Source: an uncultured Flavobacteriaceae bacterium (GTDB lineage: Bacteria > Bacteroidota > Bacteroidia > Flavobacteriales > Flavobacteriaceae). Taken from it: DNA of 64,000 bases. The stretch is taken from positions 124,001 to 188,000 of the forward strand of contig CANLWN010000001.1 in the NCBI GenBank assembly GCA_947494825.1, given 5' to 3'. Shown piece after piece: positions 26,074-47,964 of this stretch. Below the pieces are notes generated by a model. The model was not told the DNA's origin, searched no databases, and saw only the letters and a list, made by a program, of their open reading frames with translations. Numbering within the stretch: the first letter of the stretch is position 1; every line of letters starts with the position of its first letter. The translations under genes were made by a program, and so were the position numbers.

Positions 26074-26210
26074 GGTACTTGGTTTTATCGATTGGTTGTG
26101 GAACATTGGGCGCTTCCTTAGAATTTATTGGCTCAAAGTAGCGCATGGGAGCGGTTATTTCGCTTCAAATTATAAAGTGACCTATACTTGTAGCCCGGGA
26201 GAAAGTGTAG

Positions 26211-29824: not shown

Positions 29825-29882
29825 GTTATAACATTAGATTAATAGTGATTTAATTGGTTCCCGCCCTAGGGCGAGGTCCGTA

Positions 29883-31010: not shown

Positions 31011-31025
31011 TTGGTTTTTTAATTA

Positions 31026-32639
31026 TTAGTAACCTGGGTTTTGTATTAGATTGGGATTGGCATTCAAGTCTCCTGAGGGTATTGGGAATAGTTTTAGGTG
31101 CTCGGGTATGGCGGTGCCATTTTCCACGCCTCCTTTCCAATCCCATAGATAGGTACTTCCGGTATATTGCCCGAAACGTATCAGGTCTGTTCTTCTATAG
31201 CCTTCCCATCCAAGTTCCCTGCCACGTTCATCGAGGATAAAGGGGAGGTCAATGGCGGCCACATTCCCGGAGGTATCCCCATAGGCCCGTTCCCTTATGG
31301 CATTTACAAAGCTCAAGGCCGTTGCCAGATCGCCACCGCCGCCCCTAAGGAAGGCTTCGGCATACATAAGGTAAATATCGGCCAAACGGAAGAGCGGTAG
31401 ATCAATATCCGGAAACGTATTGTCCTGTCCGGGAACCCCTGCAGAGCTTAGGTTGCGGTATTTGGTATACCCAAAACCTTCCTCAAAGTCGCTTCCCGTA
31501 GGAGGGGAGGTCAGTTCCAGGGAATGCCCGTCCTTAAAGAAAAAGGAAGCGCGTTGATCTGGGCTGTCCTGGAAAGGGTCGTCTCCGGGAAATTCAAAAA
31601 GACGTACAAAACTCTCTTTACAGGTAAGCGCGGCAAAACCACCGGTATTGGCGCCAAAATCGTCCGAGGCGTTTATGTTGGCATCCAAGGTACCGTTGAC
31701 CATGATGAACATAAACCCAAAGGATTGGGTCTGTATACCATCGTGTGTTACGGGGAAAATGATTCCTTCCGCGGTATTGTTGTCAGCGAGGAACAGCTCG
31801 TTGTAATTGGGTTCCAAGGCATAACCTGCTCCAATAACCCTGTTACAAAACGTTAAACAGTCTGCATAGCGGTTTTCTCCAATAAAACTTTCCGCATTGA
31901 GGTACAATCTGGCCAACAGGGTCCATGCCGCTGCCTGATCAGCCCTTCCATACCCATTTTGTCTGGCCGGAACCAAAAGATCGGCGATTTCGAGTAATTC
32001 GGATTCAATATAACTAAAAAGCGCCGCAGCGTTGGTCTGCTCCGGAAGGAATGCTCCGGGCAGATCGTCCTCGGTCACAAAGGGGACATTTCCCCCAAAG
32101 AGTTCTAGACCATGGTAGTAGCTCAACGCTCTTAGGAACCGCGCTTCGGCACGATAGAAAGCCACTTCTGACTGAATATCGGTAGAAACGTTCCTACCAT
32201 CGAGCACTTCCTGAGTGGTCTGCCGCAAAAATTCGTTGGTCTGGGTCACCTGGAAGATAATCCTGTTGTAGACTACCGAAATAACGTCGTTGTCGGGAGT
32301 CCAGGTATTGATCAACAATCCAGGCACACCGGCATCGTTATAACGCCATTTTACGGCATCGGCGGTTAGCTCGTTAAGGTAGAAATAGGTCCTGGTATAT
32401 TGGGAGTTTCCTTCGTCGAAACCAATAAGATCCCCTTGTCCTGCCGGACCTTGCTGTCCGGTTACCGATAGCCCCGCATAGATCTTTCCCAAAAACTGAA
32501 GGTAGCTTGCGGGATCGTCGAAGGCATTTTCCGAGTTGATATTGTTCGTCTCTATATTGTCCAGATCGTCCGTGCATCCTATGGACACAAGGAGAAACAG
32601 AAGGACAGAAATGAATTGATGTATATTACTGATTTTCAT
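31026..32639 (-). CDS. susD: SusD/RagB-family nutrient-binding lipoprotein
   Basis: The 537-aa protein has a lipobox (FLLVSIGC, Cys22). It shows the SusD pattern: N-terminal TPR-like helices (ASYLQFLGKIYAGL; AEARFLRALSYYHGLELFG; AWTLLARLYLNAESF) and the C-terminal block LPLFRLADIYLMYAEAFLRGGG...FILDERGRELGWEGYRRTDLIRFGQY. It forms the lid of the SusC pore and binds the glycan. It is 12 nt after susC. The specificity for starch is taken from the linked GH13 enzymes. Confidence 0.94.
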   Translation of the reverse strand: MKISNIHQFISVLLFLLVSIGCTDDLDNIETNNINSENAFDDPASYLQFLGKIYAGLSVTGQQGPAGQGDLIGFDEGNSQYTRTYFYLNELTADAVKWRYNDAGVPGLLINTWTPDNDVISVVYNRIIFQVTQTNEFLRQTTQEVLDGRNVSTDIQSEVAFYRAEARFLRALSYYHGLELFGGNVPFVTEDDLPGAFLPEQTNAAALFSYIESELLEIADLLVPARQNGYGRADQAAAWTLLARLYLNAESFIGENRYADCLTFCNRVIGAGYALEPNYNELFLADNNTAEGIIFPVTHDGIQTQSFGFMFIMVNGTLDANINASDDFGANTGGFAALTCKESFVRLFEFPGDDPFQDSPDQRASFFFKDGHSLELTSPPTGSDFEEGFGYTKYRNLSSAGVPGQDNTFPDIDLPLFRLADIYLMYAEAFLRGGGGDLATALSFVNAIRERAYGDTSGNVAAIDLPFILDERGRELGWEGYRRTDLIRFGQYTGSTYLWDWKGGVENGTAIPEHLKLFPIPSGDLNANPNLIQNPGY

Positions 32640-32651
32640 GCTATTGTTTTT

Positions 32652-35630
32652 TTAAAAGTCCAACGATAATCCCGCCTGTACCGTAAAAGGCCTAGGGTAG
32701 ATGTTATTGTCTATTCCATTGGTTATCTCCGGATCCAGTCCGTCATAGTCCGTAATGACAAAGACATTCTGTAAGGTGGTGAAGACCCGCATTCTCGATT
32801 CCTCGTTCCACAACTTTTCAAAGGTATAACCAAGGGACATATTGTCCATACGGATAAAAGAGGCGTCCCGCACATAGTAGTCGGAGAAGGTAACCTCGTT
32901 GCTGGTGCCCTCAAAGTTAGATTGCAGTACGGAGGTACCCACGTTTCTAAGATCTTGTCCTATATTAAGGTTCCTAAAGTTCCCGCGGTTCAGGTCAATA
33001 CCATTGTAGTTGTAATTCCCGTAGTTGGCACGTGCAGAGAAGCTGAAGTCCCATTGTTTGTAGGTAAACCGACTGTTGAGGCCAAAATTGGCCAGCGGCG
33101 CGGCCTGCTTATAGGCCCTTCTGTCCAGGTCATTGATGATGCCATCGTTGTTGAGATCGCGTACAACGCCCTCTATAGGATTACCGGCTTGGTCGAACAC
33201 TTGTTGGAAAACAAAATAGCTTCGGGTAGGCTCGCCCACCAAATGCCATTGTGCCCCGTCGTCCCCTCCAATACCTATAAGCGAGGTACCGCTTACGGGG
33301 ATACCGCTTCCAGGGGTATTACCGGTGAGGAACAAACGATCTATTTCGTTTTCATTATAAGCAAAGTTGAACCCGAGATCCCAAGTAAACTCTTCCTGGT
33401 CAAAAACGGCCGCATCCAGGAAGAACTCCACACCTTTGTTGGTGAGGCTTCCGATGTTGGTCGGCAGTCTGTTCGTCAGGTTACTTCCAGCGGCCACATT
33501 AACAGTACTCAACAAATCTTCCGTTTCCCTGTAGTAAAGCTCTATGGCTCCGGTTAGGTGGTTGTCGAAGAAACCATAATCCAAACCAACGTTATATGTG
33601 GTAGTCTCTTCCCATTTAATGTTGGCATCAAAAGGTTGTGCCCGTAAGGTGGTCACAAATATTGGATTGCCGTTGGCATCTTGCCCTATCTGGGTAGACG
33701 CTCCGTTCTGACTGGGCGAGAATTGGGGCAAGAAAGGTTGTGTGTCCGTACCTTGCAGTACATCCTGCTGTCCTGTGATACCCCATCCCATCCGAAGTTT
33801 TAGATTGGAAAGTATGTTGGAATCCTTTAGGAAGTTCTCGTCGCTTATGTTCCAGGCCAGGGCAGCCGCGGGGAAATTACCCCAGCGATTGTCGCCCCCA
33901 AAACGGGAGGAACCATCCCTTCTGTACGTAACTGTTAAAAGATACTTGTCATTCAAAGTATAGTTCAACCGACCAAAAAAGGACTGTAGATTACTTTCCA
34001 AAATGGTATTGATGATCAAAGCGCCTCCAACACCATCGCCCCTGAGATCTTCGCTCATGCGGTCCTCATAAAAGTTCTGATAAGAATAACCGGCCGTAAA
34101 ATCCAATCTGGATTTGATTTTTTCGAATTCCTTGGCGTATTTGAAATAGACATCCATGAGCTTGTTTTCCTCATCCTGTTCAAAATTACGTATACGCCCC
34201 TGCACTATGGCCTGGGCGGCTAGGGTTGCAGGTTGGATGTCGCTACCGTCTCCGACCGATTTGTCGATTCCCAAATTAAGGGTGGCGGTGATATCAGGGA
34301 AGAAGTGCAACTGGTAATCGAACTTTACATTCCCCACAAACCTTCTGGCGATGGTACTGTTATCCCGAAGCTCCAAAAGCGCCAAGGGGTTGTTCACCGT
34401 ATTGGAGGTAGCCGAACCATCAGGTTCGTAATAGTCAAAGAACCCTCCAGGCAAGGAAGCGTCAAAAACGGGTTGGGTGGGATCAAATTCCAGTGCGCTA
34501 CCAATGGCACCCGTATCCGCAAAGTTGTTTTCCGTATACGATCCCCTACCGTTGATCTCTATTCTCAATTTATCGTCAAACAGGCGAGGAGTAACGCTTA
34601 AGGATGCCGTGGTCCTTTCCAGTGCCTCCGTTTTTAGAATACCGTCCTGTTGCGTATATCCGATGGATGCTCTAAAGGGAATACCCTTTATGCCCCCACG
34701 AACACTGAAATTGGTATCGGTACCCAGGGCTGTGGAAAAAATCTGTTCCTGCCAGTTGGTATTGGCCGATCCCAGATCATCTACTCTGTCGGGTAGTCGC
34801 TGCGTTACCAGCTCACGGAAATCTGCTGCGCTGAACACACCAACCACCTCTTTAAGCGTACTTACTGAGGCCGATGAATTAAAGGAAAATTTTAGGTCGC
34901 CCGCAATACCCTTCTTGGTGGTGATAATAATCACCCCATTGGAGGCCCGGGACCCGTAGATAGCAGTTGCCGAGGCATCCTTTAAAATAGAGAAGGAGGC
35001 AATATCACTGGGGTTTACAAAATCGAAGACGTTTCGCGAGCCCGAATTCCGTTGCTCGTCCGATCCGGGATTGTCCAGCGGCACCCCATCAATGATAATC
35101 AGGGGATCGTTGCTGGCATCGAGGGAAGAGCCTCCACGGATACGGATCTGGCTTCCACTGCCGGGAGCACCCCCGTTGGTAGTAATGTTGACCCCGGCGG
35201 CCTTACCTACAAGTAAATCTTGAGGCGAAGCGATAAAACCCTGGTTGAGTTCTTCTTCCGTGACCCCGATCACCGAACCGGTGGCGTCCTTTCTCGTGGT
35301 AGTACCATAACCGATGACCACAACCTCCTGTAGCTTGGCAACGTCCTGCTCTAGCGAAACGTTGATGGTGCCGGAGGCAACGGTGACCTCTACCGTTTTA
35401 AAGCCAATGTAAGAGAAGACCAGTACATCGCCGGTATTGGCGTTAATTTGATAGTTTCCATCAAAATCGGTGGTCGTACCAGTTGAAGTTCCTTTGATGA
35501 GGACGGTTACCCCGGGCAGTGCCAGGTTGCTACCATCTTCCGTGACAGTTCCCGTCACCAGATTTTGGGCCATGGCCCACAGCGGTACAAGGAGCATCAC
35601 AAGAAATGTCCTTGAAATCTTTTCATTCAT
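32652..35630 (-). CDS. susC: SusC/RagA-family TonB-dependent glycan transporter
   Basis: The 992-aa protein has a signal peptide (TFLVMLLVPLWAMAQ), the carboxypeptidase-regulatory-like N-terminal extension (VTGTVTEDGSNLALPGVTVLIKG...GNYQINANTGDVLVFSYIGF), a plug domain (KDATGSVIGVTEEELNQGF; IRIRGGSSLDASNDPLIIIDGVPLD) and a 22-strand-type barrel ending in an aromatic residue (AGLSLDF). With SusD it imports starch oligosaccharides. It is the first gene of the susCDE-GH13 operon, and its upstream region holds two inverted repeats. Confidence 0.95.
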   Translation of the reverse strand: MNEKISRTFLVMLLVPLWAMAQNLVTGTVTEDGSNLALPGVTVLIKGTSTGTTTDFDGNYQINANTGDVLVFSYIGFKTVEVTVASGTINVSLEQDVAKLQEVVVIGYGTTTRKDATGSVIGVTEEELNQGFIASPQDLLVGKAAGVNITTNGGAPGSGSQIRIRGGSSLDASNDPLIIIDGVPLDNPGSDEQRNSGSRNVFDFVNPSDIASFSILKDASATAIYGSRASNGVIIITTKKGIAGDLKFSFNSSASVSTLKEVVGVFSAADFRELVTQRLPDRVDDLGSANTNWQEQIFSTALGTDTNFSVRGGIKGIPFRASIGYTQQDGILKTEALERTTASLSVTPRLFDDKLRIEINGRGSYTENNFADTGAIGSALEFDPTQPVFDASLPGGFFDYYEPDGSATSNTVNNPLALLELRDNSTIARRFVGNVKFDYQLHFFPDITATLNLGIDKSVGDGSDIQPATLAAQAIVQGRIRNFEQDEENKLMDVYFKYAKEFEKIKSRLDFTAGYSYQNFYEDRMSEDLRGDGVGGALIINTILESNLQSFFGRLNYTLNDKYLLTVTYRRDGSSRFGGDNRWGNFPAAALAWNISDENFLKDSNILSNLKLRMGWGITGQQDVLQGTDTQPFLPQFSPSQNGASTQIGQDANGNPIFVTTLRAQPFDANIKWEETTTYNVGLDYGFFDNHLTGAIELYYRETEDLLSTVNVAAGSNLTNRLPTNIGSLTNKGVEFFLDAAVFDQEEFTWDLGFNFAYNENEIDRLFLTGNTPGSGIPVSGTSLIGIGGDDGAQWHLVGEPTRSYFVFQQVFDQAGNPIEGVVRDLNNDGIINDLDRRAYKQAAPLANFGLNSRFTYKQWDFSFSARANYGNYNYNGIDLNRGNFRNLNIGQDLRNVGTSVLQSNFEGTSNEVTFSDYYVRDASFIRMDNMSLGYTFEKLWNEESRMRVFTTLQNVFVITDYDGLDPEITNGIDNNIYPRPFTVQAGLSLDF

Positions 35631-35719: not shown

Positions 35720-35877
35720 GGGCGGATTGGGCAGTGGCACATGGCGATTCTCAAAAAAAAGACGATTCAGGGTTTACGAAAATTTTATTATTTGGATTTG
35801 TAACATATCTTACGGATACCTTACTAATAAGATCTAAGGCTTTCCGGCAGGGTAGCCAGGTTATAATTCAAACACCA

Positions 35878-36849
35878 ATGCGGTATCCTAGAAGTTTTCT
35901 TTTGTGCGCTGTTTCGCTCCTTACCTATGCTATGTATGCCCAAGGCACGGTAGAGGCAGAATTTGATACCATCTATAGGTACGATTTTAACACCTTAAAA
36001 GGCAAGCACACCAAAAGGGTAGTGATCGACGCTTCGCACAATACCATTTATTCACTCTCCTATGGCAAACAATCGGCAAGGGAAATGCTCCGTATTCTGA
36101 AAGCTGATGGTTTTCAGTTGGCTTTTACCGAACAGCAACTGGACTCCACAACCGTACATGCCAGCACCGTCGATTTACTGATTATCCATGGTATGCCCAA
36201 TGACAAAAAGGTGTTGGAGGCCGATGGTAAAAAAGAAACCCTGTACACCTCCCCGCTTAGCAAGGAAGAGGTAATCAATATTGGCACCTACGTCCATGAA
36301 GGTGGAAGCCTCTTGCTCTTTCTGTCCCATTTTCCGGGAGGGAGTGGAGCCCTACCACTTTTGGAGGCCTTTAGTGTAAAGTTTCGTGACGGTTACGCCT
36401 ATCAATCGGAACACCATATCAGCGAGGGGGGGAGGTGCGGACATTTTTTAATGCACACAGGGAACGAAATGCTGAACAAGGACCACCCGGTCTTTAAAAG
36501 TACGCTGGATACCGCCACTTTGCCAGAAAATATAAAATTCTATTGCGGGGCGGCCGTGTTCCGCAGCCCCGAGGATGCCATCCTGCCCTTTCCCAAGAAT
36601 ACCATCAATTATACCCCTTCACGCACTTCTAATGAGGACCTGGAGGAGAGCTCCAATGACTATGCGGGCATGATCGGGTTCCAGTACGGCAAGGGAAGGG
36701 TGGTTATCTGCACGGATCAGGGTATTTTTAGAAGTTTGGACCTGCTTATCGATGACAAAAGGATTCCGGTAACCATTCACGACCCTGAGAGCGACAATGC
36801 AGGGCTACTTGTGAATTGTGTACGATGGCTTACCGGACTACAAGAATAG
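35878..36849 (+). CDS. Secreted GATase1/DUF4350-like protein
   Basis: I choose ATG 35878 because a signal peptide starts there (MRYPRSFLLCAVSLLTYAMYAQG); an in-frame ATG at 35734 adds 48 residues unlike an export signal. The mature ~300-aa domain has a Rossmann-like class I glutamine-amidotransferase-type pattern (VVIDASHNTIYSLSYG; VDLLIIHGMPN; INIGTYVHEGGSLLLFLSHFPGG; GRVVICTDQGIF; LLVNCVRWLTG). No catalytic Cys is evident in the usual place. Proteins of this kind often sit beside carbohydrate loci. It is divergent from susC. Function unknown. Confidence 0.7.
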   Translation: MRYPRSFLLCAVSLLTYAMYAQGTVEAEFDTIYRYDFNTLKGKHTKRVVIDASHNTIYSLSYGKQSAREMLRILKADGFQLAFTEQQLDSTTVHASTVDLLIIHGMPNDKKVLEADGKKETLYTSPLSKEEVINIGTYVHEGGSLLLFLSHFPGGSGALPLLEAFSVKFRDGYAYQSEHHISEGGRCGHFLMHTGNEMLNKDHPVFKSTLDTATLPENIKFYCGAAVFRSPEDAILPFPKNTINYTPSRTSNEDLEESSNDYAGMIGFQYGKGRVVICTDQGIFRSLDLLIDDKRIPVTIHDPESDNAGLLVNCVRWLTGLQE

Positions 36850-36903: not shown

Positions 36904-37446
36904 TTAATAGGTAATCTCCACATTTTTGATTTCTGCGTTGACATCCAGGTCGGTGAAATAATCGGAAACCTGTTGTACGTCTAGATCGATCAGCATACCC
37001 AGTGGAACAGTTTGCGGCCAATTTTTATCAAAACTATCCCAAAGTGCCCTTAAATGAGGTGAGGTGGGACCCTCTACCAACAGGCCAACCACTAATCTGT
37101 AAATACCCAAAAGGTCCTCTAAAGCGCCCTTTAATAGGATTTTGTTACTCGAAATCGCATGATCTAAGGTGATGGTCCCTGCAACCACCTCTCTTAAATA
37201 GTCCCCTTTACTTATAAAGCTTGCATGGGCCAAGGCGTCTACAGAATTTATGTGCAAGGTATATTGGTCATTATGGCTGGCCGATAATTCTAGCCTGGCA
37301 CCATCAATATCCACAATCACTTTTTTGGATAGGGTCACCTCTTTGAGCAGTCCAAAAATAAAATTGTTACTGTAACGGATATCATTGACCAAGGCTTGGA
37401 ACAACACAATTAACAATTGTTCTTGTTCAGTGTACGAATTCGGCAT
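36904..37446 (-). CDS. Possible SCP2-like lipid-binding protein, last gene of the nine-gene operon
   Basis: The 180-aa soluble protein has no signal peptide. The middle (LSASHNDQYTLHINSVDALAHASFISKGDYLREVVAGTITLDHAISSNKILLKGALEDLLGIYRLV) follows the pattern of sterol-carrier-protein-2 domains: beta-sheet, then a helix, a LDxA-type turn and 'KILLKGALEDLL' close to the SCP2 'g.lkv.Gd...l' strand-helix. I call this tentatively. Its start overlaps the CrtC-like gene by 20 nt, so the two are translationally coupled. In context it could carry the isoprenoid lipid made by the upstream enzymes (inference). Confidence 0.5.
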   Translation of the reverse strand: MPNSYTEQEQLLIVLFQALVNDIRYSNNFIFGLLKEVTLSKKVIVDIDGARLELSASHNDQYTLHINSVDALAHASFISKGDYLREVVAGTITLDHAISSNKILLKGALEDLLGIYRLVVGLLVEGPTSPHLRALWDSFDKNWPQTVPLGMLIDLDVQQVSDYFTDLDVNAEIKNVEITY

Positions 37447-38485
37447 AGAACATTCCTTTTTTTAAATAATTTTTTTTGCCCTCCAATGTTAGTGCAGCCT
37501 TGGCCTTTCCGTTAAGTTCCTTTAAAAAGGTATACTGCTTGTCCTCGTAGTCTGGCAGTACAATTTCCATTTTGGTATCGATGATCATGTCTATTTCAAC
37601 ACTATGGATATCGTCATTGGCATGCACCTTGATATGTTCCGGGGTCAATACTTTTCGATGACTAAAAACAGAGGCCAGTGCCCCAGGCAGTATGGGGATT
37701 CGTTCCGGGGTGCGCGTCCACTGAAATGTTATGTTCACGGACCTGCCCACAAAGGTCTTTTTAAGGGCATTGTTTTTATAGATAAACAGGAACGGCTTTG
37801 CGATTTTGGCAAAATCCTTGCTATTGCCCCGGTGAAAAACAAAGGTATAGATATCGTTTGTTTCGCTCCACATCGTAACCACCCACCAAACCCAACCTAC
37901 CTCTTTATCGCCCCATCGAAAGCGTCCAAAATTATGGTCGTGATAACAAAACCATCTACTCGTGATGGGAAGGTTTAGGTTCTCGTTTGTTACATATCCG
38001 TTAGGGGTCACCCCCGGGATGAATCCCCAGCCGATAAACCCACTCCCATAGGGGAAAAGTTCCGGCACCAACAAAGGTGTTGCTTCCGGTTTTCCTTCTA
38101 ATTCGAAGGAAAATTTGGGTGTTTGATGCTTTACCGATATCCTAAAATGGTCTTTGGCGATGGAAACCTCCAAAAAATCTGGAACCTTAAACTCCAATGG
38201 CATCCTAGAGGCAGGTTTTTCGGTCCATTTATCCACCTTTAGAAACCCATAATTGGCCAGTTTTGTCAAAGACCCGTTCGAAGGCATCGTAAGCTGAAAG
38301 GTTGTCGTAATCTCTCCTTGCTCCGGTCTTCCGGAGAAACTTATGTTAAACAAGATCCTTATGTTATTGTCCGGATCTAACAAAATATAGTGATACCAAT
38401 CTTTCCAGTCTTCCGGACTCAAAGGGGAAGAGGTGGGAATCTTTAATTCTTCCAAATGGTACAATATGGTATCAAACTGTTTCAT
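37427..38485 (-). CDS. CrtC/AttH-like lipocalin-fold protein, candidate isoprenoid hydratase or cyclase
   Basis: The 352-aa soluble protein has the hallmark of the CrtC/AttH superfamily near residues 178-201: WFCYHDHNFGRFRWGD followed by GWVWWVV, plus a second beta-rich half (DIYTFVFHRG; EHIKVHANDDIHSVEIDMIID). His182, Asp183 and His184 are the probable active-site residues. Known members add water to, or cyclise, isoprenoid chains (carotenoid 1,2-hydratase and related terpene-modifying enzymes). Together with the polyprenyl synthase and methyltransferase of this operon it suggests a modified terpenoid. It overlaps both neighbours (4 nt upstream, 20 nt downstream). The exact reaction is unknown. 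Confidence 0.6.
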   Translation of the reverse strand: MKQFDTILYHLEELKIPTSSPLSPEDWKDWYHYILLDPDNNIRILFNISFSGRPEQGEITTTFQLTMPSNGSLTKLANYGFLKVDKWTEKPASRMPLEFKVPDFLEVSIAKDHFRISVKHQTPKFSFELEGKPEATPLLVPELFPYGSGFIGWGFIPGVTPNGYVTNENLNLPITSRWFCYHDHNFGRFRWGDKEVGWVWWVVTMWSETNDIYTFVFHRGNSKDFAKIAKPFLFIYKNNALKKTFVGRSVNITFQWTRTPERIPILPGALASVFSHRKVLTPEHIKVHANDDIHSVEIDMIIDTKMEIVLPDYEDKQYTFLKELNGKAKAALTLEGKKNYLKKGMFYAEFVH

Positions 38486-39483
38486 CGCATTATAGAGCCT
38501 TTTTCCTTCAACACGCGCCTCGATTTTGTCTTAGGTTTTGGTTTTGTGGGCGGGGGAAGCTCCACTTTTTCTATGAGCTGCTTTAATACGGTCTCTATTC
38601 TGGGCGATAATTTCCCCAACCCCAAAATGAAGTAAGAGAACCATTTTTCCGTGTCATTGGCCATAACATCCAATACCTTTTTGTAATCTTTTGGTGTTGG
38701 AAATGCTACTTCCCGGTATTTAAATTCTGGCGATTCCACGTCTTGGTCCACGAGGTTAAAGAGCCATTCTTCCCAATGTTGCAGTATCATGGCCTCCTTG
38801 GGTTTTCCTTCGGCAAAGGCATTGATGCCCGAAGAAATGGAAAGCGCCAATTTAATCCACTGCACAAATTGGGTTCCCTGGAAGATCAAGACCCCGTTTT
38901 TGAAAAATCGCGTTCTGGAAAGGCTTTCCAAGGCCTCACTACCGTTTTTGGTAATGGCATATTTATAACCCAGGTTACAGCATGAAAGCACAAGCTCCGA
39001 GACGATCCATTTGGAGGGGATAACCTCTAGGGATGCCAAACCCGCTAGCAATTTGATGGTACTCTTGGATACCAAAACGCTGTTGGAAGGGGGTTGGTCT
39101 TCTTCAAGGGAGATAGGGGGAATGGTGATACGGGTGGTATGGTGATACGCTTTTTTGGTCTTTGGGGTCCTGGACACGACCTCGATTTCAATAGGAAATA
39201 CATAGGTTTCCGAACTTGGGACATTAAGTGCCCCATAGAGGACGTTTCCTTTTTTAAGATTTTTGGGCAATTGGATACTAAAGGTCAGTTTGGCCTCCCC
39301 TCCGGTTTGAAGAAAGGAATACACCGGTTCCAAGCCATAGTCGGCCTCATATATGGTACCGTCATTGCGCACCCAGTGGTCCAAATTTGGTTGTATGACC
39401 GCCGGTGCGATAATATTACTTATTAGATTTACCCTTAAAATGAGTAGGCTGTTTGAAGCGGCTTGTATACTAATGGGTTGCAT
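38482..39483 (-). CDS. Unrecognised protein with N-terminal Ig-like beta-sandwich and helical C-terminus
   Basis: The 333-aa protein has no signal peptide. Residues about 1-105 look like a beta-sandwich (LLILRVNLISNIIAPAVI; GGEAKLTFSIQLPKNLKKGNVLYGALNV; TYVFPIEIEVVS). The G-Y-A-L strand followed by a V.P.E.EVV edge strand recurs in the 41462, 42195 and 42969 proteins. Residues 135-300 are helical with hydrophobic stretches (VSELVLSCCNLGYKYAI; FVQWIKLALSISSGINAFA) and the tail is basic and proline-rich (PPPTKPKPKTKSRR). It is 14 nt after the polyprenyl synthase gene. It may be a scaffold or membrane-associated subunit (inference). Confidence 0.6.
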   Translation of the reverse strand: MQPISIQAASNSLLILRVNLISNIIAPAVIQPNLDHWVRNDGTIYEADYGLEPVYSFLQTGGEAKLTFSIQLPKNLKKGNVLYGALNVPSSETYVFPIEIEVVSRTPKTKKAYHHTTRITIPPISLEEDQPPSNSVLVSKSTIKLLAGLASLEVIPSKWIVSELVLSCCNLGYKYAITKNGSEALESLSRTRFFKNGVLIFQGTQFVQWIKLALSISSGINAFAEGKPKEAMILQHWEEWLFNLVDQDVESPEFKYREVAFPTPKDYKKVLDVMANDTEKWFSYFILGLGKLSPRIETVLKQLIEKVELPPPTKPKPKTKSRRVLKEKGSIMR

Positions 39484-39497
39484 AATTTTGATGGGGT

Positions 39498-40592
39498 TTA
39501 TAGGTCTCGTTCAATAACGTAGTTTACAATTTCTCTTATAAAGCGATAATCCACTACATCGCTTTCCCAGTTCTCATCGATTTGAACGGGCGATTTTTTC
39601 ATAAAAAAGGACATTTCTTCAAGAAGCTTGCTAGCTTTTTTTGCCATTTTAAGTGCCAATTCCTGTCCGTACACAATACTCCCACAACGATGCATCTCCG
39701 ACAGGACAAAATCTACGTCCTCTTGTTTTTTATCGGTTCGGGCAAGTTTTATGATGTTTTTGATCTTGGCTTCGTTCTTGCCCGCATTCCTAATAAGATG
39801 ATTGAGCATAATGGTCCGCTTGCCCTCGTAAATATCCCCGGCTATTTCCTTCCCATACTTTTGTTCCGAGCCTATTAGATTAAGCAGGTCATCCTGGATC
39901 TGAAAGGCGATACCGAGATACATACCAAATCTTGTAAGTTGTTCCAGGTGTTGGGGCATGTTCATATCCTTCCAAAATTCGGCGCCTACGATATACCCTA
40001 TACGGCAGGGCGAAATAAAGGTGTACCAACAGGTTTTTTTGGTGCACATCACAAAATAGTCTTCATCGTTCAGATCAAATTGATGGTTTGCCACCCAATC
40101 GAGCTCCATGGATTGCCCTTCTACGGACTGCCTTGCCATCTGTTCAATTTCATGAATGATATGCAAGGCCTTGGCGACCCCTATTTCATTCAGATTTTCC
40201 AGCAACAAACTTACGGCCAGTACATTTGTGGCATCGCCTATATTGACCGCACGGGGAATACCCACGAGCTGATGCAAGGTTTCCTTGCCCCGCCTGTTTT
40301 CTGACCCGTCCTCCACATCATCATGGATTAAAAAGGCATTGTGATACAGTTCCAATGCCGTACTGGAAACCAAGGCCGCATGTCCCATACCATGTACACC
40401 CCTTGCCACGCTGATGCAAAGGGTAGGGCGCAGGCCCTTTCCTTTTCGAAAAGGGTAGTCCGAAAGCATGGTATACAAGGGTTCATAAGCGCCCTCAACA
40501 TTTTTTTTCTGCTCGATCAGCTCCGCTATTTTTTTACCCACAGCCAATCGGGTATAGTCCAAAGCATCATTTATGATCGTTTTGTTGTGCAT
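39498..40592 (-). CDS. Polyprenyl diphosphate synthase (trans-isoprenyl transferase family)
   Basis: The 364-aa enzyme has the family motifs: KGLRPTL, the first aspartate-rich motif DDVED at residues 91-95 in FLIHDDVEDGSENRRG, and the second motif DDLLN at 234-238 in FQIQDDLLNLIG. Phe87 four residues before the first motif is the type of bulky residue that shortens the product chain, so C15-C20 is plausible. It joins IPP to an allylic diphosphate. It follows the methyltransferase gene by 3 nt. Because it lies in a nine-gene operon with no quinone genes, a specialised product is more likely than housekeeping prenyl chains. Confidence 0.9.
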   Translation of the reverse strand: MHNKTIINDALDYTRLAVGKKIAELIEQKKNVEGAYEPLYTMLSDYPFRKGKGLRPTLCISVARGVHGMGHAALVSSTALELYHNAFLIHDDVEDGSENRRGKETLHQLVGIPRAVNIGDATNVLAVSLLLENLNEIGVAKALHIIHEIEQMARQSVEGQSMELDWVANHQFDLNDEDYFVMCTKKTCWYTFISPCRIGYIVGAEFWKDMNMPQHLEQLTRFGMYLGIAFQIQDDLLNLIGSEQKYGKEIAGDIYEGKRTIMLNHLIRNAGKNEAKIKNIIKLARTDKKQEDVDFVLSEMHRCGSIVYGQELALKMAKKASKLLEEMSFFMKKSPVQIDENWESDVVDYRFIREIVNYVIERDL

Positions 40593-40595
40593 GGA

Positions 40596-41438
40596 TCACG
40601 TACTGGCAATGGTTAAACCTATATCTTTCTGTATTTCTTCCCAATACTGGAAGGTAAACCCAGCGGTTTCCAAGAGCTGTTTTTGCTCCTCCCAACGGTA
40701 AAACCTTTTGAAATGGGGGATTGCGCCCTTTAAAACGTTCTCGGAAAGCTTTTGGGTAGCGGAGCCCAGCGGTTCTATGATAAGAAGTTTTCCCTTTTTG
40801 CGGAGTAGTCGGTGAAATTTGTGAAAAACATTCTCGACGGTCTCAAAATAATGAAGCGAGATATTGCAAAAAACAAGGTCGAAATGGCCGGTAAGTTCTG
40901 GTGGAGGGTCGTTGATATCCGCTTGGTAGAAACCAACATGGGATTGTCTTTGTAACTTGGCATTGCGATAGGCCCGTTTGATCATGCCTTCGGACAGATC
41001 CAGCCCAATCACTTCCCCTTGTGGGACCAATTGTCTTAATTTCAGCATTTCGTGCCCCGATCCGCAGGCGGCATCCAAAATATAGGATGAATTTTCCACC
41101 TGGGTCTCCAGGATCTCAAAAGCACGGTCTAGAAAGCGCGATTTAAATTTGTGGGTGGCTAGTTCATATTCATCCGCACACAGGTCAAAATACCTTACTT
41201 TTTTTTTATCCCCCGGGGTAGTATGGAGTCGTCTTAGGAAGATTCCACCCTCGGTAAGTCTGGGTCTGTTTTCCGTCCTGGGGTCTATGCCTGGCAGAGT
41301 CCCAAGTGTGTTATTTAGGTGTATGTCCAATTCCTGCAACCGATTTATGGACTTAAAGACACTTTCTGCCCATAGGTTGGTGATCATCGTCATATAGGGC
41401 CCCCAAATATCTCTATGAATATCAAAGTTTTGTTTCAT
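40596..41438 (-). CDS. Class I SAM-dependent methyltransferase
   Basis: The 280-aa protein has an N-terminal helical extension of about 85 residues, then a Rossmann methyltransferase: motif I ILDAACGSGHE (residues 120-130), acidic loop VIGLDLSEGMIKRA, post-motif FDLVFCNISLHYFE and GKLLIIEPLG. The fold is of the Methyltransf_11/25 type used on small molecules, including lipids and quinones. It is 3 nt upstream of the polyprenyl synthase, so the substrate may be the isoprenoid product or its precursor (inference). Confidence 0.88.
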   Translation of the reverse strand: MKQNFDIHRDIWGPYMTMITNLWAESVFKSINRLQELDIHLNNTLGTLPGIDPRTENRPRLTEGGIFLRRLHTTPGDKKKVRYFDLCADEYELATHKFKSRFLDRAFEILETQVENSSYILDAACGSGHEMLKLRQLVPQGEVIGLDLSEGMIKRAYRNAKLQRQSHVGFYQADINDPPPELTGHFDLVFCNISLHYFETVENVFHKFHRLLRKKGKLLIIEPLGSATQKLSENVLKGAIPHFKRFYRWEEQKQLLETAGFTFQYWEEIQKDIGLTIAST

Positions 41439-41461
41439 AGTGCATTCGGTTTATAGGGTTT

Positions 41462-42133
41462 CTATGATTGTTGGGGGGGTAAAAATGTCAGTGACGCCTT
41501 CTCCTTTTTGTTTTTGGCCGATAAGACCTCTAAGATGACCTGAAACACCCGATGCTCGTTCCCCTTGAGTATCAGCGTGGCAAAATATTGGTTTTGGACT
41601 CTTAGTCCGCTTTTGAGGTCAATGCTTATTTTTAATTGATCCTTTTTCTTGGGGGGAAGTACGATCAGGGTCTTGTCTGCGGAAATTTTGTTTTTGACCA
41701 CCTCGCCGGTACGCATATTTTTTAGCTCCCCAAGATCTACAACCACTTCTTGGGAAACCTCATGGACGTTATTGATATTTAAGGGAATCTGCACTTTTTT
41801 CTGGCTCAAAAATGATCGGACCATAAAGGTGCCGGAATCAATAATGGCAGGTTCGGAAGGAACATCCGTACCAGGGGTTTGGGCAGTGTTACTATCGGTA
41901 TTTTTTTCCGCTTCCTTTTTAATTTTTCTCAATACACTGCGTTCCAGGTCATGCCGGTTTTCAAGCATGGAATTGAGAAAGTTCATACCACCATTTACCA
42001 AGGGTTTCATCGTGGCAGTGCTAGATCTTTCCAATTGGGATTGCACAATATCTATCAGACGTTGATCGCTTTTGTATCTCAGGTCCGTTATTTTTTCAAG
42101 TGTTTTAAAGGTATGCTCTAATGAATCGTCCAT
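41462..42133 (-). CDS. Unrecognised protein: helical N-terminus plus Ig-like beta-sandwich
   Basis: I start at ATG 42133 (MDDSLEHTFKTLEK), giving 223 aa. The longer frame to 42316 would overlap the cysteine-rich gene by 122 nt and reads as a shadow of it. Residues 1-85 are amphipathic helices (LRYKSDQRLIDIVQSQLE; SVLRKIKKEAEKN), then a Ser/Thr/Pro linker. Residues about 110-215 form a beta-sandwich (KVQIPLNINNVHEVSQEVVVDLG; LIVLPPKKKDQLKISIDL; NQYFATLILKGNEHRVFQVILEVLS). The last pattern is shared with neighbours at 38482, 42195 and 42969. No signal peptide. Probably a structural partner; function unknown. Confidence 0.65.
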   Translation of the reverse strand: MDDSLEHTFKTLEKITDLRYKSDQRLIDIVQSQLERSSTATMKPLVNGGMNFLNSMLENRHDLERSVLRKIKKEAEKNTDSNTAQTPGTDVPSEPAIIDSGTFMVRSFLSQKKVQIPLNINNVHEVSQEVVVDLGELKNMRTGEVVKNKISADKTLIVLPPKKKDQLKISIDLKSGLRVQNQYFATLILKGNEHRVFQVILEVLSAKNKKEKASLTFLPPQQS

Positions 42134-42194
42134 GACTTGGCGGTTATAGGTTCTACAATGAGGTACACAAAATGCAAAGCAGTTTTCCGGATGC

Positions 42195-42935
42195 CTATTG
42201 GGGAATCCTCTCGAAAGCTGTGCCGGTTGGATCACATAGGTAATACGATTTGGTGTTAACGCAGCATTCACAAGAACAATCGCCACATTCGCAATCACAT
42301 GGTCCACAGCTGGCAAATTCCACGAATTCGCCTTTTTTGGGCCTACAGCTATCGGTGAGTGTAAAGTGATCTACGTAGTTGTCGGGTTGCACGTAAATAC
42401 CAAGGCATATTTTCTCATCCATACAATGTCCCGTCATGCGAATTTCGGCATAGTAAGCGGTACATTCCTTGAATGGAGGTATAAGATCGATCGCCAATTT
42501 TACGCGCTGGCAGTGACAGGGCGGGATAACAAATTTTGGTGGATCAAAGCGAAAATTCTGCCCAGGCTGTAGTCGCTCGCCACAACCATCGATTAAAATG
42601 GGCACTTGCAATTCCACCTCCTGGGGGGAAGACCTATTGTTTTCTATTAAAAAGGAAACCATTCTCCTTTCGCCCAAGCGGGCCTGCACATCGATATCCA
42701 CGCTGGCACTGAGCTTGCCGCAGGTACAGCAGTCCATGAGCGAGCCTTGGCATTCGCACCCACAATTGCAATTGCTTATCTTGCTCCCCGATTTTAAACC
42801 GGAGGCTACCAGGTCGTTGACCATATTGAGGGTGTCGCTTAAACCTCTAAAACCAATGTCCAGGAGGTCTGTCGTAATAGTTGTTGCCGATTTTTTTCTG
42901 GCCTTTCGATGATCAATTTCCCATGCTGTGTTCAT
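42195..42935 (-). CDS. Cysteine-rich protein with central beta-sandwich
   Basis: The 246-aa cytosolic protein has two cysteine clusters around a central beta domain. Cluster 1 is CNCGCECQGSLMDCCTCGK (about residues 56-74). Cluster 2 is CGPCDCECGDCSCECC (about residues 210-226). The central domain (RRMVSFLIENNRSSPQEVELQVPI; DPPKFVIPPCHCQRVKLAIDL; YYAEIRMTGHCMDEKICLGIYVQ) has the same edge-strand pattern as three neighbours. The clusters look suited to binding several metal ions or an iron-sulfur centre. No signal peptide. It sits between the HhH-fusion gene and the 223-aa gene in the operon. I know no family with this layout. Confidence 0.7.
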   Translation of the reverse strand: MNTAWEIDHRKARKKSATTITTDLLDIGFRGLSDTLNMVNDLVASGLKSGSKISNCNCGCECQGSLMDCCTCGKLSASVDIDVQARLGERRMVSFLIENNRSSPQEVELQVPILIDGCGERLQPGQNFRFDPPKFVIPPCHCQRVKLAIDLIPPFKECTAYYAEIRMTGHCMDEKICLGIYVQPDNYVDHFTLTDSCRPKKGEFVEFASCGPCDCECGDCSCECCVNTKSYYLCDPTGTAFERIPQ

Positions 42936-42968
42936 GATGCTAATTTTTATAACATGTTTTTCTGTCTA

Positions 42969-43937
42969 TTAATTTTTTGTTGGCATAACGGTGAACGAAA
43001 TTGCCGAGTTGTAAAAGCGGTACATACCGTCGTATCGGTTGGGGCGTTTAAGCGTGCCCGGGATTGAAATGCTTAAGCTGAATTTTTCGGTCTTGCCCGG
43101 TGCTATGAGCTTGGGTGCACCGTTTAAACGTATCTTCATAGTGCTTCCCTCGTCATAGATCTCCTCCAATTTTTCGGCCGTCAGGCAAATGACCTGATCT
43201 AAGCTGGCCCTGTCCTTGTCCAAGGCCCTTGCCACATGTCGTATGGCCCTGCATTCAATGAAATCGGTTTCCAAGATCACCGCGCCGGGATCGGCAAACA
43301 AAACAGGAAAATTGCCCATATTTTTAACAAAAAGATCCTTGTTGACCTTGGAACCGGGCTTGGCCTCAATATAAAAGCGGGCCGGGTTTAGGTTTACGAA
43401 TACTTTTTCCTCTACATCGATCTCCACGGAATGACTCGTGCCGTCTACCAGTACATCCAGGGCATGAGTGCCCGGTGGGGTAAATCGCGATAGGGGTATC
43501 TTCACATCTACAAAGTTGGTAGTGTCCGAATGTACCGTAGGGAGTCTTTTAAATGTCATGGAAGACAGGGGAACGTTTTTCTTTCCCAGCAGTTTGGTAT
43601 TGGCGAAAGCTATGTTTGCAGGTTCCCTTGAATTGGAAACGAATCTGATTTTTCGTCTTGCGCCGCCCAGGGTTCCATGGAACTTGACCTTTGGTCCCGT
43701 TTTTTTATCAGCGGATGCCTTTTTTGTGCCCGTATTGGATGGGGCGACAGTAACCAACTTGGCAATGTTTTGTAGGAGCTCCCTGCTAATTCCCTTAACG
43801 GAACCGAGATCGCTCAATTTTTTAAATTTGCCGTACTTCTTTATATGCTCCTGTATATTTTTAGCCAGACCTGGACCTATTCCTGGGAGTGATTTTAGCT
43901 GATCAATAGTGGCGGTGTTGATATTTATTTTAGCCAT
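42969..43937 (-). CDS. ComEA-type HhH module fused to beta-sandwich domains
   Basis: The 322-aa protein starts with a clear ComEA-like helix-hairpin-helix unit (ININTATIDQLKSLPGIGPGLAKNIQEHI...GKFKKLSDLGSVKGISRELLQNI, residues 3-60). A Lys-rich linker and two beta-rich segments follow (VDVKIPLSRFTPPGTHALDVLVDG; LNPARFYIEAKPGSKVNKDLFVKN; EKFSLSISIPGTLKRPNRYDGMYRF). HhH units of this kind bind DNA without sequence specificity, but ComEA is exported and this protein has no signal peptide. The unit might instead mediate protein contacts. It is the second gene of the operon, 17 nt after the repeat protein. Confidence 0.75.
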   Translation of the reverse strand: MAKININTATIDQLKSLPGIGPGLAKNIQEHIKKYGKFKKLSDLGSVKGISRELLQNIAKLVTVAPSNTGTKKASADKKTGPKVKFHGTLGGARRKIRFVSNSREPANIAFANTKLLGKKNVPLSSMTFKRLPTVHSDTTNFVDVKIPLSRFTPPGTHALDVLVDGTSHSVEIDVEEKVFVNLNPARFYIEAKPGSKVNKDLFVKNMGNFPVLFADPGAVILETDFIECRAIRHVARALDKDRASLDQVICLTAEKLEEIYDEGSTMKIRLNGAPKLIAPGKTEKFSLSISIPGTLKRPNRYDGMYRFYNSAISFTVMPTKN

Positions 43938-43954
43938 TGGGGTGCAATTCTTGG

Positions 43955-44428
43955 TTATTTGTTATCTGCTATCGTAACCCTTAGGCTATCCTTGCCCTTT
44001 GGTGTAGAAGCTGTAAATCTTGGCGGCTTGGGTACCTGGAATAGGCGTTTGGAATTTTCTTCCGTCAGCACCATGGCCTTACCGCATATCCCAAAATTCA
44101 AAAGCGGTAGTCCCAAAAAACGTATCCCAAAATCAAAATTTACAGGGAACTGCATCTTCATGGACGGGAGTTCCTTAATGGCAAATGACATGCACATATT
44201 TACATTATCCAATCCCATATCCACATTAACATTATCCAGTCCCATGTCCACATTAACATTGTCCAGCCCCATATCGACCGTGGAGTTCATCTCCATGTCC
44301 ATTTTTATGTCGTCTAATCCCATATCTACCGTAATTGGCGCCATGGACAAGAAGCTGTTGGTGGTCATGTTGGCATCCACATCAAGCTCAAACGGCTGCG
44401 GTATTTCTATGTTTACATCCTTACCCAT
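43955..44428 (-). CDS. Nonapeptide-repeat protein, first gene of the nine-gene operon
   Basis: The 157-aa protein has no signal peptide and no recognised family. Residues about 30-75 hold repeats of the type VDMGLDNVN (three near-identical, with degenerate VDMGLDDIK and MEMNSTVDMGLDNVN before them), which alternate hydrophobic and acidic positions and suggest a regular beta structure. Residues 85-120 are hydrophobic (FPVNFDFGIRFLGLPLLNFGICGKAM). The tail is basic and Pro-rich. It leads the operon, and 550 bp of non-coding DNA lie upstream. Confidence 0.65.
   Translation of the reverse strand: MGKDVNIEIPQPFELDVDANMTTNSFLSMAPITVDMGLDDIKMDMEMNSTVDMGLDNVNVDMGLDNVNVDMGLDNVNMCMSFAIKELPSMKMQFPVNFDFGIRFLGLPLLNFGICGKAMVLTEENSKRLFQVPKPPRFTASTPKGKDSLRVTIADNK
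44204..44284. repeat. Three 27-bp tandem repeats
   Basis: Units at 44204-44230, 44231-44257 and 44258-44284 differ at only a few positions. They encode the VDMGLDNVN nonapeptides. The high DNA identity suggests recent expansion by slippage. Confidence 0.85.
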
Positions 44429-45012
44429 AATTGTTTTATTAATTGATAATCAATAGTTTATTTTAGCAATGTTGTCCTTGTAGTGTTGAAAATGGGGAAT
44501 GGACCCCAAGCATGAAAAAGTTATTCATAGAGGAAGGTTCTCTTATAAAATCCTTTGGAGTTTTCCATAACAAATAAGTGATCAAAGCACATCTGATATC
44601 AAGTCAACTTCTCCATGTAAAAACACTTTGCTGTACTAAGGGGGAAAGCAAGGGGGCAACGTACTACGCAATTTTATCTGTACTTAAAACCAAGAAATAA
44701 TCAAGATTTCTTGGATTCAAATACGCACTGCCAGAAGGTTTCTGACATAAAAGCTCTGGTTTCCCTTAAATTTAGGGAATTTTCGGGTTAAAATAAAGCA
44801 TCCCTTGAATTTTAACTTTTTTAATGTGCCAATGGAAGTAAATTGTGTATAAATGGTTTTTGAAGTACTAGAATCAATGGGTTTGGGCCAGAAAATAATT
44901 AAACTGGACAGGAGGCTATAAATTATGTAACTTTAATTGATACATACTTGGCACGGCGTGCAGGGCCATTTGATTAATATTGGACGTCGGTTATTTTCAG
45001 TTCTTAACTCCT
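44429..45012. other. AT-rich spacer between the nine-gene operon and the TPR hybrid regulator
   Basis: This is a divergent promoter region of about 580 bp. It is strikingly AT-rich with T/A runs (for example around 44760-44960) and must hold the promoters of both the nine-gene operon (minus) and the regulator (plus). I could not place a convincing -33/-7 pair and see no gene or strong hairpin. Confidence 0.4.
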
Positions 45013-47964
45013 ATGAAACACGCTTTCCTTTTCCTAGCATCCTGGGTCTGCTTTTTCGCAACGGCCCAAAACAGATATAACGTCGATTCCTTGAATCGAG
45101 TTTTGCGTACCACCCCCAATGATACTGTGAAGATAACGACCTTGCAATGGATCTTTGACAATTATATGTACACCAAGCCGGATTCGGCTAAATGGGCCTA
45201 TCAGAAAATGTTTTCTATTTCGGAGAAGACCAACTTTGACCACGGGTACTACGAGGCCTATTTATACAAGGCGGTTTATTATTGGACCTCTTCCAAATTC
45301 GATAGCGTAATCGCATCGATGAACGGTGCGCTAAAACACGCGCTCCTACTGGAAGACGATGGTAAAATAAGCAATTGTTATGTACGTCTGGCCATGGCCC
45401 AGTCCAGTTTGGGCAATCAGGTAGCTTCTCGGGATCTTACCTTTAAGGCCCTGGAGATTGCCGAAAAGAACAATGATTGGGAGGGACTGTACTTTTGCTA
45501 TCATAGGTTGGGCAACCTTTACCAGTTGGAAAGTAACTTTGATCAGGCCTTGATCTACCATCTTAAAGTGGATTCCATTTTTCAAAACCGTGCGCGAAAA
45601 GAACCGGCCCTGGCCGGTTCCCTACACGAGATCGGTTCCATTTTCATGGAGTTCAAGGACTATGAGAAGGCCGAGCAGTACTACATGAAGAGCAAGGAAG
45701 TGTACAGGGAAATGTCCCGAAAGGAGGGCGAGGTATTGATCGATGTAAAAATGGCGGGACTAAAAATAAGCCAGGAGGAGTATGAACAGGCAACCGAAAT
45801 ACTAGTTCCTGCCTTTGATTACTACGAGGCGGTAGGAAACAAAATGGAAATGTCCACGCTGGCCGGAATGCTTGCAGAGGCCCAATTGAAACTGAATGAT
45901 CTGGACCGGGCGGAAGGCTACTATTCCCAGGGGGCGGCTCTGGCCTTGGAAGCAGCAAATAAGTTCCTGGAAGCCCAGTCCTATATGGGCCTGGCGGAGG
46001 TGGCGAAGGGCAGGAAGAATTTTAGGTCCACCATCGATTACCTTTCAAGGGCATTGGTACTTTATGAAGAAATGGGGGTTTCCTATAACAAAGCACCTAT
46101 ACTGGAAAGTTTGGCCGAGGCCCATAGTGGTCTCAACAACGATAGGGAGGCCTTGCGGTTTTTTAGACAGTATCAAGGGTTGACCGACAGCTTGCGAGAG
46201 GTAGAAAACGTACGCAACGTCCAGGAAATAGAGACCAAATACCAAACGGAAAAAAAACAGCAGGAAATAGAACTGCTCACGGCCCAGAATGAATTGGCCG
46301 AACAGGAAAAGAGCAATCAGCGCAACTTGTTCTTTGCAGGAGGTTCCGTATTGACACTTTCGCTCATAGGTCTCTTTTTTCTGTATAGAAACAAACAGCG
46401 GACCAACACCAAGCTCCGAGAGCTCGATGAGATGAAGTCGAGTTTCTTTGCCAACATTTCCCATGAGTTTAGGACCCCACTTACTTTAATATCCAGTCCG
46501 ATCCAGGAAAAATTGGAAAATGAAAAGCTGACGGTCGAGGACCGCGAGACCTTTGGGATGATCCAACGGAACAATGACCGCTTACTGAATTTGGTGGACC
46601 AGTTGTTGGATCTTTCCAAGATCGATACCGGAAATATGCGGTTGAAGGTGCAGAAAGGCGATCTGTTCAATTTATTGGGCGCACTTTCCGAATCCTTTCA
46701 ATACATCGGCAAACAAAAGAACATTACCTACAGCATACAACTACAAAAGGGGGGCATATCCAGTTGGTACGATCGGGATATGATGGAAAAAATTGTACTT
46801 AACCTTTTGTCCAATGCCTTTAAACATACAGGAGAAGGCGGTTCGGTTGTTTTTGAAGGCAAGCATAAAGAAGGGGAAAATTTGGTGTTGACGGTCAGGA
46901 ACAGCGCACCTTCCCTTAGCCAAGAGGAGTTGATCAACGTTTTTGATCGTTTTTATCAAGCGAGTCCGCAATCGGAGGGCAGCGGAATTGGTCTGGCACT
47001 GGTCAAGGAGTTGGTAAGTCTTCACAAAGGTCATATACGGGCTTGGAAAGAGGCAGAAGAAGTAACCTTTGAAGTGAGCTTACCAGTTGATGAAGGTCGT
47101 TTTAGCAAGGAAGAACGGTTAATGGATCCTATAACGGGCCAGACCAAACGGCAGATTCCTATTGCGGATTCCCCAGTCCATAACGAAGATCCGGTTCCCC
47201 AAGAGGACCATCCCATCCTTCTTGTCGTGGAGGATCATGCCGAGGTTCGGGAGCTTTTGCGAAAGACTTTCACGAAGGACTACAATGTCATAACCGCATC
47301 ACAAGGTGAGGAAGGCTTGGAAAAAGCCCTGGAATACATACCAGATCTGATCATTTCGGATATCATGATGCCCGTTAAGGACGGTATCGCGCTTAGCAAA
47401 GAACTGAAGTCCGATGAGCGTACCAGTCACATTCCCGTCATTCTTTTGACAGCCAAAGCGGGCGAGGAGAATGAATTAAAGGGCATAGAGACCGGAGCGG
47501 ACGATTATATGGTAAAACCGTTTAAGCGTAACCTCCTTCGATCCAAGGTGGAAAAACTCATCGCGCTACGGAAACAACTTCAGAACAGGTATAGCCAGGA
47601 GGTGGTACTCAAACCCAAAGATATTGCCATTACTTCGATAGACGAACGCTTTTTGGAAAGGGTACAGCAGGTACTGGACCAAAACTTGGTGGAATCTGCT
47701 TTCACTGTTGAGGAATTTAGCCGAGCCGTAGGCATGAGCCGGATGCAACTGCATAGGAAGCTTAAGGCGCTCACGGGACTTTCCGCCACGGAGTTTATCC
47801 GCTCCCAACGTTTAAAATTGGCCGCACAATTGTTGCAGCAATCAGACAGCAATGTCTCCCAAGTAGGGTACGCGGTCGGTTTTAACGACCATTCCTATTT
47901 TACCAAATGCTTCCGCGAACTGTACCATATGACCCCTTCCGAGTACGCCAAAAAGGACAGCTGA
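45013..47964 (+). CDS. TPR hybrid two-component regulator (histidine kinase, receiver and AraC DNA-binding domain in one protein)
   Basis: Starting at ATG 45013 gives 983 aa with signal peptide MKHAFLFLASWVCFFATAQ; an ATG at 44980 adds 11 residues. Order: about ten TPR-like helices in the periplasm, a membrane helix (NLFFAGGSVLTLSLIGLFFLY), HisKA with phospho-acceptor His in FFANISHEFRTPLTLI, HATPase_c (NLLSNAFKHT; GSGIGLALVKELVSLH), a receiver domain (LLVVEDHAEV, acceptor Asp in DLIISDIMMPVKDG, KAGEENELKGIETGADDYMVKPF) and an AraC HTH (EFSRAVGMSRMQLHRKLKAL; SQVGYAVGFNDHSYFTKCFRELY). It senses an envelope signal and controls transcription directly. It is divergent from the nine-gene operon and upstream of the OmpA/peptidase genes; either may be its target. 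Confidence 0.9.
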   Translation: MKHAFLFLASWVCFFATAQNRYNVDSLNRVLRTTPNDTVKITTLQWIFDNYMYTKPDSAKWAYQKMFSISEKTNFDHGYYEAYLYKAVYYWTSSKFDSVIASMNGALKHALLLEDDGKISNCYVRLAMAQSSLGNQVASRDLTFKALEIAEKNNDWEGLYFCYHRLGNLYQLESNFDQALIYHLKVDSIFQNRARKEPALAGSLHEIGSIFMEFKDYEKAEQYYMKSKEVYREMSRKEGEVLIDVKMAGLKISQEEYEQATEILVPAFDYYEAVGNKMEMSTLAGMLAEAQLKLNDLDRAEGYYSQGAALALEAANKFLEAQSYMGLAEVAKGRKNFRSTIDYLSRALVLYEEMGVSYNKAPILESLAEAHSGLNNDREALRFFRQYQGLTDSLREVENVRNVQEIETKYQTEKKQQEIELLTAQNELAEQEKSNQRNLFFAGGSVLTLSLIGLFFLYRNKQRTNTKLRELDEMKSSFFANISHEFRTPLTLISSPIQEKLENEKLTVEDRETFGMIQRNNDRLLNLVDQLLDLSKIDTGNMRLKVQKGDLFNLLGALSESFQYIGKQKNITYSIQLQKGGISSWYDRDMMEKIVLNLLSNAFKHTGEGGSVVFEGKHKEGENLVLTVRNSAPSLSQEELINVFDRFYQASPQSEGSGIGLALVKELVSLHKGHIRAWKEAEEVTFEVSLPVDEGRFSKEERLMDPITGQTKRQIPIADSPVHNEDPVPQEDHPILLVVEDHAEVRELLRKTFTKDYNVITASQGEEGLEKALEYIPDLIISDIMMPVKDGIALSKELKSDERTSHIPVILLTAKAGEENELKGIETGADDYMVKPFKRNLLRSKVEKLIALRKQLQNRYSQEVVLKPKDIAITSIDERFLERVQQVLDQNLVESAFTVEEFSRAVGMSRMQLHRKLKALTGLSATEFIRSQRLKLAAQLLQQSDSNVSQVGYAVGFNDHSYFTKCFRELYHMTPSEYAKKDS

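Follow-up and report, generated by a model that had tools for sequence, protein, structure and literature searches.

A set of nine genes on the minus strand of an uncultured Flavobacteriaceae bacterium (assembly GCA_947494825.1, contig CANLWN010000001.1; the window is the 64,000-nucleotide stretch of this contig that was analysed) forms a conserved and real cluster for an isoprenoid, with what is probably a scaffold of its own. The genes, called g1 to g9 in their direction of reading, run from position 44428 down to 36904. In the reading that we favour, to which we give a probability of roughly 0.55, they encode a dedicated soluble assembly that makes and tailors an isoprenoid, consisting of a prenyl synthase (g6), a hydratase or cyclase (g8), a methyltransferase (g5), a lipid carrier (g9) and a scaffold of proteins with PapD/Fn3-like domains. 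The enzymes are of known kinds; the novelty is their combination with immunoglobulin (Ig)-like proteins, and no description of this gene set was found in the open-licence literature searched.

The genes stay together in other genomes

The original prediction, made from the sequence of the window, had named a test beforehand: if these genes belong together, they should also cluster elsewhere, and they do. When public genomes were scanned with an alignment of two synthase sequences, 80 loci in about 15 phyla were retrieved, and gene maps of these were drawn with iterated hidden Markov models (HMMs) built on the nine proteins. Counting was restricted to the 49 loci that remained after removal of one duplicate and that had at least 4 kb on each side of the synthase. 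A beta-domain protein of the g2, g3, g4 or g7 type lies within 8 kb of the synthase in 46 of these 49 loci; the other partners are g8 (31 loci), g9 (27), g1 (11), g2 (11) and g5 (5). The density of beta-domain matches declines steeply with distance, being 48.9 per 100 kb at up to 1 kb from the synthase and 0 at more than 8 kb; that of g8 behaves likewise. The association of synthase and beta protein is far above background and, because the loci were retrieved by the synthase alone, was not selected for, whereas the counts are not independent events because the loci share descent. What speaks most strongly for the beta proteins as an integral part of the system is their constancy, which exceeds that of every tailoring enzyme.

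Several loci carry the whole set or nearly so. All nine families are found on one strand in a Piscinibacter metagenome-assembled genome (MAG; L032), with IspH between g9 and g1, and on two opposing strands in L012, which also has a geranylgeranyl-reductase-family gene; two further loci (L037, L038) have a nearly full set with g7 split. Closer to the host the cluster is rare. Of 299 sampled genomes of the family, only the host genome has g8, and four have g2-type proteins. A sample of the phylum gave one strong g8 relative, in a genome of another family (G454), where the order synthase, beta protein, helical protein, CrtC-like protein, SCP2-like protein is kept at identities to the window proteins of 45% for the synthase and 21% for the CrtC-like protein. 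On the opposite strand beside that cluster (L008, 10729-16319) lie a radical SAM gene and a gene for a 1080-residue fusion of ferritin-like, flavin adenine dinucleotide (FAD) amine oxidase and Rieske parts. A search of plasmids with g8 gave no match. One weak g8 match (L006) is a CrtC-like protein in a different setting; another (L007) overlies a dehydrogenase open reading frame and was set aside as probably due to chance.

The prenyl synthase and its product

The g6 gene (39498..40592, minus strand, as are all nine) encodes a trans-prenyl diphosphate synthase of 364 residues, as had been predicted: it matches polyprenyl_synt at 6e-56 and has both Asp-rich motifs, DDVED and DDLLN. Its nearest solved structure is the Thermus thermophilus geranylgeranyl diphosphate (GGPP) synthase 1wmw (6e-49), and the NCBIfam equivalog cut-offs for GGPP synthases are not reached; the product is perhaps a chain of about C20. 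For the synthase clade as a whole, isopentenyl diphosphate (IPP) supply genes sit in the clusters themselves, which makes an isoprenoid product very likely. IspH lies in or beside four clusters (L032, 13448-15046; L041; L047; L050), and L049 has another match; in L043 (227-781) the gene directly upstream of the synthase encodes isopentenyl-diphosphate isomerase (Idi). The isoprenoid chemistry originally proposed is thus supported both by the synthase family and by these sister loci.

In a tree of the synthases, the window g6 clusters with 22 cyanobacterial sequences, two from Burkholderiales, one from a Deltaproteobacterium and one from a Bacteroidetes MAG (support 100/100), apart from the Bacteroidota branch that bears the reductase subtype described below. 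Because g6 groups with cyanobacterial synthases and the set is rare among the host's relatives, the cluster was probably transferred horizontally between distantly related microbes, for which a tree alone is no proof. A Kitasatospora plasmid carries a synthase 44% identical. The host genome has two further prenyl synthases and, on another contig than the operon, one phytoene-synthase-family gene; no geranylgeranyl-reductase-family gene scores above the cut-off in it.

A predicted CrtC/AttH fold with CrtC-like residues

The g8 gene (37427..38485) encodes a protein of 352 residues resembling CrtC, AttH and kievitone hydratase, a candidate terminal hydratase or proton-initiated cyclase. The original assignment to this group had pointed to the sequence HDHNFGRFRWG, which lies within g8, and the predicted structure bears it out. 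An AlphaFold2 (AF2) model built on 42 sequences (predicted local distance difference test score, pLDDT, 91.1; predicted template modelling score, pTM, 0.92) has the two-barrel lipocalin-like fold of the CrtC/AttH superfamily over the whole chain. The 14 top structure matches all belong to this group, with Z scores of 22.0-26.4 over 278-297 residues, and the next, unrelated chain scores 8.8; they include the pericyclases CghA, Fsa2 and Phm7, AttH NE1406, kievitone hydratase (Z 24.4 over 289 residues) and 25-phosphosteroid lyase.

Exchange of H239, W241, Y266 or D268 for alanine inactivates Rubrivivax CrtC, in which D268 has been proposed to donate the proton (PMC4717167); activity drops drastically or is lost when W110, W283 or W285 is substituted (PMC12402844). 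We matched g8 to these published residues by motif and spacing rather than by direct alignment with CrtC. On this basis g8 has the catalytic Tyr-x-Asp and the Trp pair of CrtC: Y181, D183, W198, W200 and W30 are invariant in all 42 homologues, and the two Trp of the Trp-x-Trp follow the Asp at +15 and +17, which is the CrtC spacing (+14 and +16 in most g8 relatives). Most likely, therefore, g8 works like CrtC, and would protonate a terminal double bond, although it is not CrtC by profile or neighbourhood. The Pfam CrtC profile does not match the window g8, and among the 42 relatives it matches a single one (0.13). On these grounds we discarded the idea that g8 is an ordinary carotenoid CrtC; the operon has neither phytoene synthase nor other carotenoid genes, and the host's phytoene-synthase-family gene lies elsewhere. 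Because enzymes with this fold also catalyse cyclisations and pericyclic reactions, and because six of the 42 relatives weakly match Tocopherol_cycl (best 7.6e-5), hydration and cyclisation are both possible for g8.

The methyltransferase and the putative carrier

The g5 gene (40596..41438; 280 residues) encodes a class I S-adenosylmethionine (SAM) methyltransferase, in agreement with its earlier annotation, matching Methyltransf_31 at 1.9e-21 and 76.7 bits against a cut-off of 27. It resembles BioC and UbiE profiles, yet scores far under the UbiE cut-off. For g9 (36904..37446; 180 residues), a candidate lipid carrier, the suggestion of an SCP2-like protein gains support from its relatives, 26 of 35 of which match the Pfam SCP2 sterol/lipid carrier domain (best 1.7e-5), whereas the window copy itself has no match.

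In spheroidene-type carotenoid end-group tailoring, CrtC hydrates and CrtF methylates the chain. The operon is analogous in that an isoprenoid would pass through a hydratase-like step and a methyltransferase step, but it differs in that g5 is no clear Methyltransf_2 protein (2.8e-4, under the cut-off) and in that its substrate is probably not a carotenoid.

A family of beta proteins as a probable scaffold

The remaining genes encode the putative structural proteins. In its AF2 model, the g7 protein (38482..39483; 333 residues) begins with a beta sandwich of the PapD/ASH/Fn3 type, after which comes a helical part that is modelled less well; its residues 1-109 have their best structure match (Z 10.1) in the N-terminal domain of GH123. 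The g3 (42195..42935; 246 residues) and g4 (41462..42133; 223 residues) proteins form one family, in which 29 of the 57 members have Fn3-like matches (best 7.5e-5). The g4 protein has a helical stretch at its N-terminus before an Fn3-like beta domain (fn3_5, 0.015); its start was taken as the ATG at 42133, a longer open reading frame from a TTG at 42316 being a presumed artefact, which is our sole correction to the earlier positions. The g3 protein is cysteine-rich, as had been noted, with dense clusters, CNCGCECQ and CGPCDCECGDCSCECC, that are perhaps metal-binding. In g2 (42969..43937; 322 residues), a ComEA-like helix-hairpin-helix (HhH) domain (HHH_3, 9.7e-18) is fused to an Ig-like beta region. 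The predicted fusion is therefore real in the window, but it is no general feature of g2: the other 14 of the 15 g2 proteins compared have no HhH domain, which places DNA binding outside the common core. The g1 protein (43955..44428; 157 residues) has the predicted nonapeptide repeat, readable in the sequence (VDMGLDNVN), and a conserved C-terminal region; it has no Pfam or NCBIfam match, and relatives occur in 14 loci.

These proteins had been described as a set of related structural proteins. Because iterated HMMs merge every beta family, we did not accept iteration alone as proof of kinship and consulted hhalign, which links g7 with g3/g4 (96.8%, E 3e-10) and g2 with g3/g4 (93.3%, E 2.6e-7) and leaves a direct g2-g7 link unsupported (4.8%). 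Thus g2, g3/g4 and g7 are partly related, whereas g1 is left outside the beta set.

Interchangeable partners and an encapsulin branch

Certain settings recur among the loci. Fourteen, in cyanobacteria, combine the beta protein and g8 with a macrolide-family glycosyltransferase; ten, mostly in Bacteroidota, combine the beta protein with a geranylgeranyl-reductase-family enzyme; and eight, mostly in Myxococcota and Pseudomonadota, combine the beta protein and g8 with an FAD amine-oxidase-like enzyme. A fourth arrangement, found on the Ruegeria sp. AD91A plasmid (L094/L096; NZ_CP031947.1, 429112-434487) and in two MAGs (L086, 2350-10927; L088), shares the synthase clade and a beta protein with the operon, and differs in adding a family-1 encapsulin, DUF3237 and an FAD oxidase and in having maps without g8 and g9. 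Since this branch retains its beta protein, the beta proteins do not simply stand in for a shell. No Linocin_M18 family-1 encapsulin occurs among the nine genes or in the host genome (family 2 was not searched).

Encapsulin systems of family 2B have a polyprenyl transferase or terpene cyclase as cargo (PMC8346489). The operon is similar in that a prenyl synthase is encoded beside dedicated structural proteins and in some cases a methyltransferase, but it has no encapsulin gene and its beta proteins are Ig-like. Tentatively, and at odds that we would put somewhat below even, these loci may together represent a lipid-making assembly of a new kind, in which a prenyl synthase and an Ig-like coat or scaffold, found from cyanobacteria to Bathyarchaeota MAGs, are joined by interchangeable modules (hydratase plus carrier, reductase, oxidase, glycosyltransferase), with an encapsulin shell in one branch.

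Proposed mechanism and alternatives

In the proposed scheme, g6 would form a prenyl diphosphate by condensing an allylic diphosphate with IPP. The chain would bind to g8, where Asp183 would protonate the terminal double bond; water would then quench the cation to a tertiary alcohol, as happens in kievitone hydratase and CrtC, unless the chain cyclises instead. The product may be methylated by g5, and g9 may carry the hydrophobic chain. The g7 protein and the g1-g4 set, with their PapD/Fn3-like domains and in some cases N-terminal helices, would form a cytosolic scaffold or coat that keeps the enzymes close to the lipid. We infer both the order of reactions and the physical assembly; the compartment idea in the original prediction is plausible.

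Several points weigh against this scheme. No residue of g8 clearly corresponds to H239 or W241 of CrtC, the upstream region having W153 and a variable F155, and the same fold houses pericyclases and a phosphosteroid lyase. The C20 chain length is backed by a single similarity. Methylation is not part of the core, as g5 relatives are found in only eight loci overall. Finally, Ig-like domains are common.

The leading alternative, to which we give about half the weight of the favoured reading, is a soluble natural-product cluster of the ordinary kind that yields a small terpenoid or a modified prenyl alcohol, in which the beta proteins are only chaperones, carriers or adaptors and no particle or compartment forms. 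Every enzyme comes from a known family and the tailoring genes vary between loci, as they do in such clusters, but the constancy of the beta proteins in the 49 loci, with up to four per locus, exceeds that of any tailoring enzyme. It is rather improbable that g1-g4 and g7 instead coat an isoprenoid inclusion, like phasins on polyhydroxyalkanoate granules, with g9 moving lipid there. The N-terminal helices of g4-type proteins would suit such a role and three of 57 g3/g4 relatives match Phasin_2, but these matches are few and weak (best 0.0024), the window g4 has none, and we know of no granule in these organisms; phasin kinship of the helices is accordingly not claimed. A prenylated quinone or membrane-lipid variant, with g8 in the role of a tocopherol-cyclase-like enzyme and g5 in that of a UbiE-like methyltransferase, is the least probable, because, whatever the tocopherol-cyclase-like g8 relatives and the BioC/UbiE resemblance of g5 may suggest, the nine genes include no head-group prenyltransferase and g5 falls far short of UbiE.

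Layout of the operon and its surroundings

Reading the open reading frames directly confirms the predicted run of nine collinear minus-strand genes with gaps of at most 61 nt. The intergenic gaps are 17 (g1-g2), 33 (g2-g3), 61 (g3-g4), 23 (g4-g5), 3 (g5-g6) and 14 nt (g6-g7), and g7/g8 and g8/g9 overlap by 4 and 20 nt. Pfam and NCBIfam gave no convincing match for the window copies of g1, g3, g4, g7, g8 and g9. A simple Kyte-Doolittle hydropathy scan showed no obvious signal peptide at any of the nine N-termini, in agreement with the prediction; the sole hydrophobic N-terminus is that of g7, which is modelled as a beta strand. No Bacteroides-type promoter (TTG, TAnnTTTG) was found upstream of g1. 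The neighbours on either side, both encoded on the opposite strand, are an uncharacterised gene at 35734-36849 and a tetratricopeptide repeat/histidine-kinase/response-regulator/AraC hybrid at 44980-47964.

Elsewhere in the window, by reading, positions 3825-13107 encode two very large RHS/YD-repeat-like proteins (1773 and 1154 residues) in a GC-richer stretch (up to 53%), 16145-20072 resembles a hydroxyproline catabolism locus (dihydrodipicolinate-synthase-like, semialdehyde-dehydrogenase-like and proline-racemase-like genes), and 24214-35630 resembles a starch-utilisation locus with SusC/SusD-like and alpha-amylase-like genes.

Implications

The approximately 40 relatives of the candidate hydratase g8 that share the key residues of CrtC may be of use for terpene hydration. 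Isoprenoids are water-insoluble and usually handled at membranes; if the favoured reading is true, a widespread soluble system that brings a scaffold of its own would reveal a way in which bacteria keep isoprenoid chemistry in the cytosol. It would also point to lipids not yet sought in cultured Planktothrix, Arthrospira, Chitinophaga, Chryseobacterium and Aequorivita.

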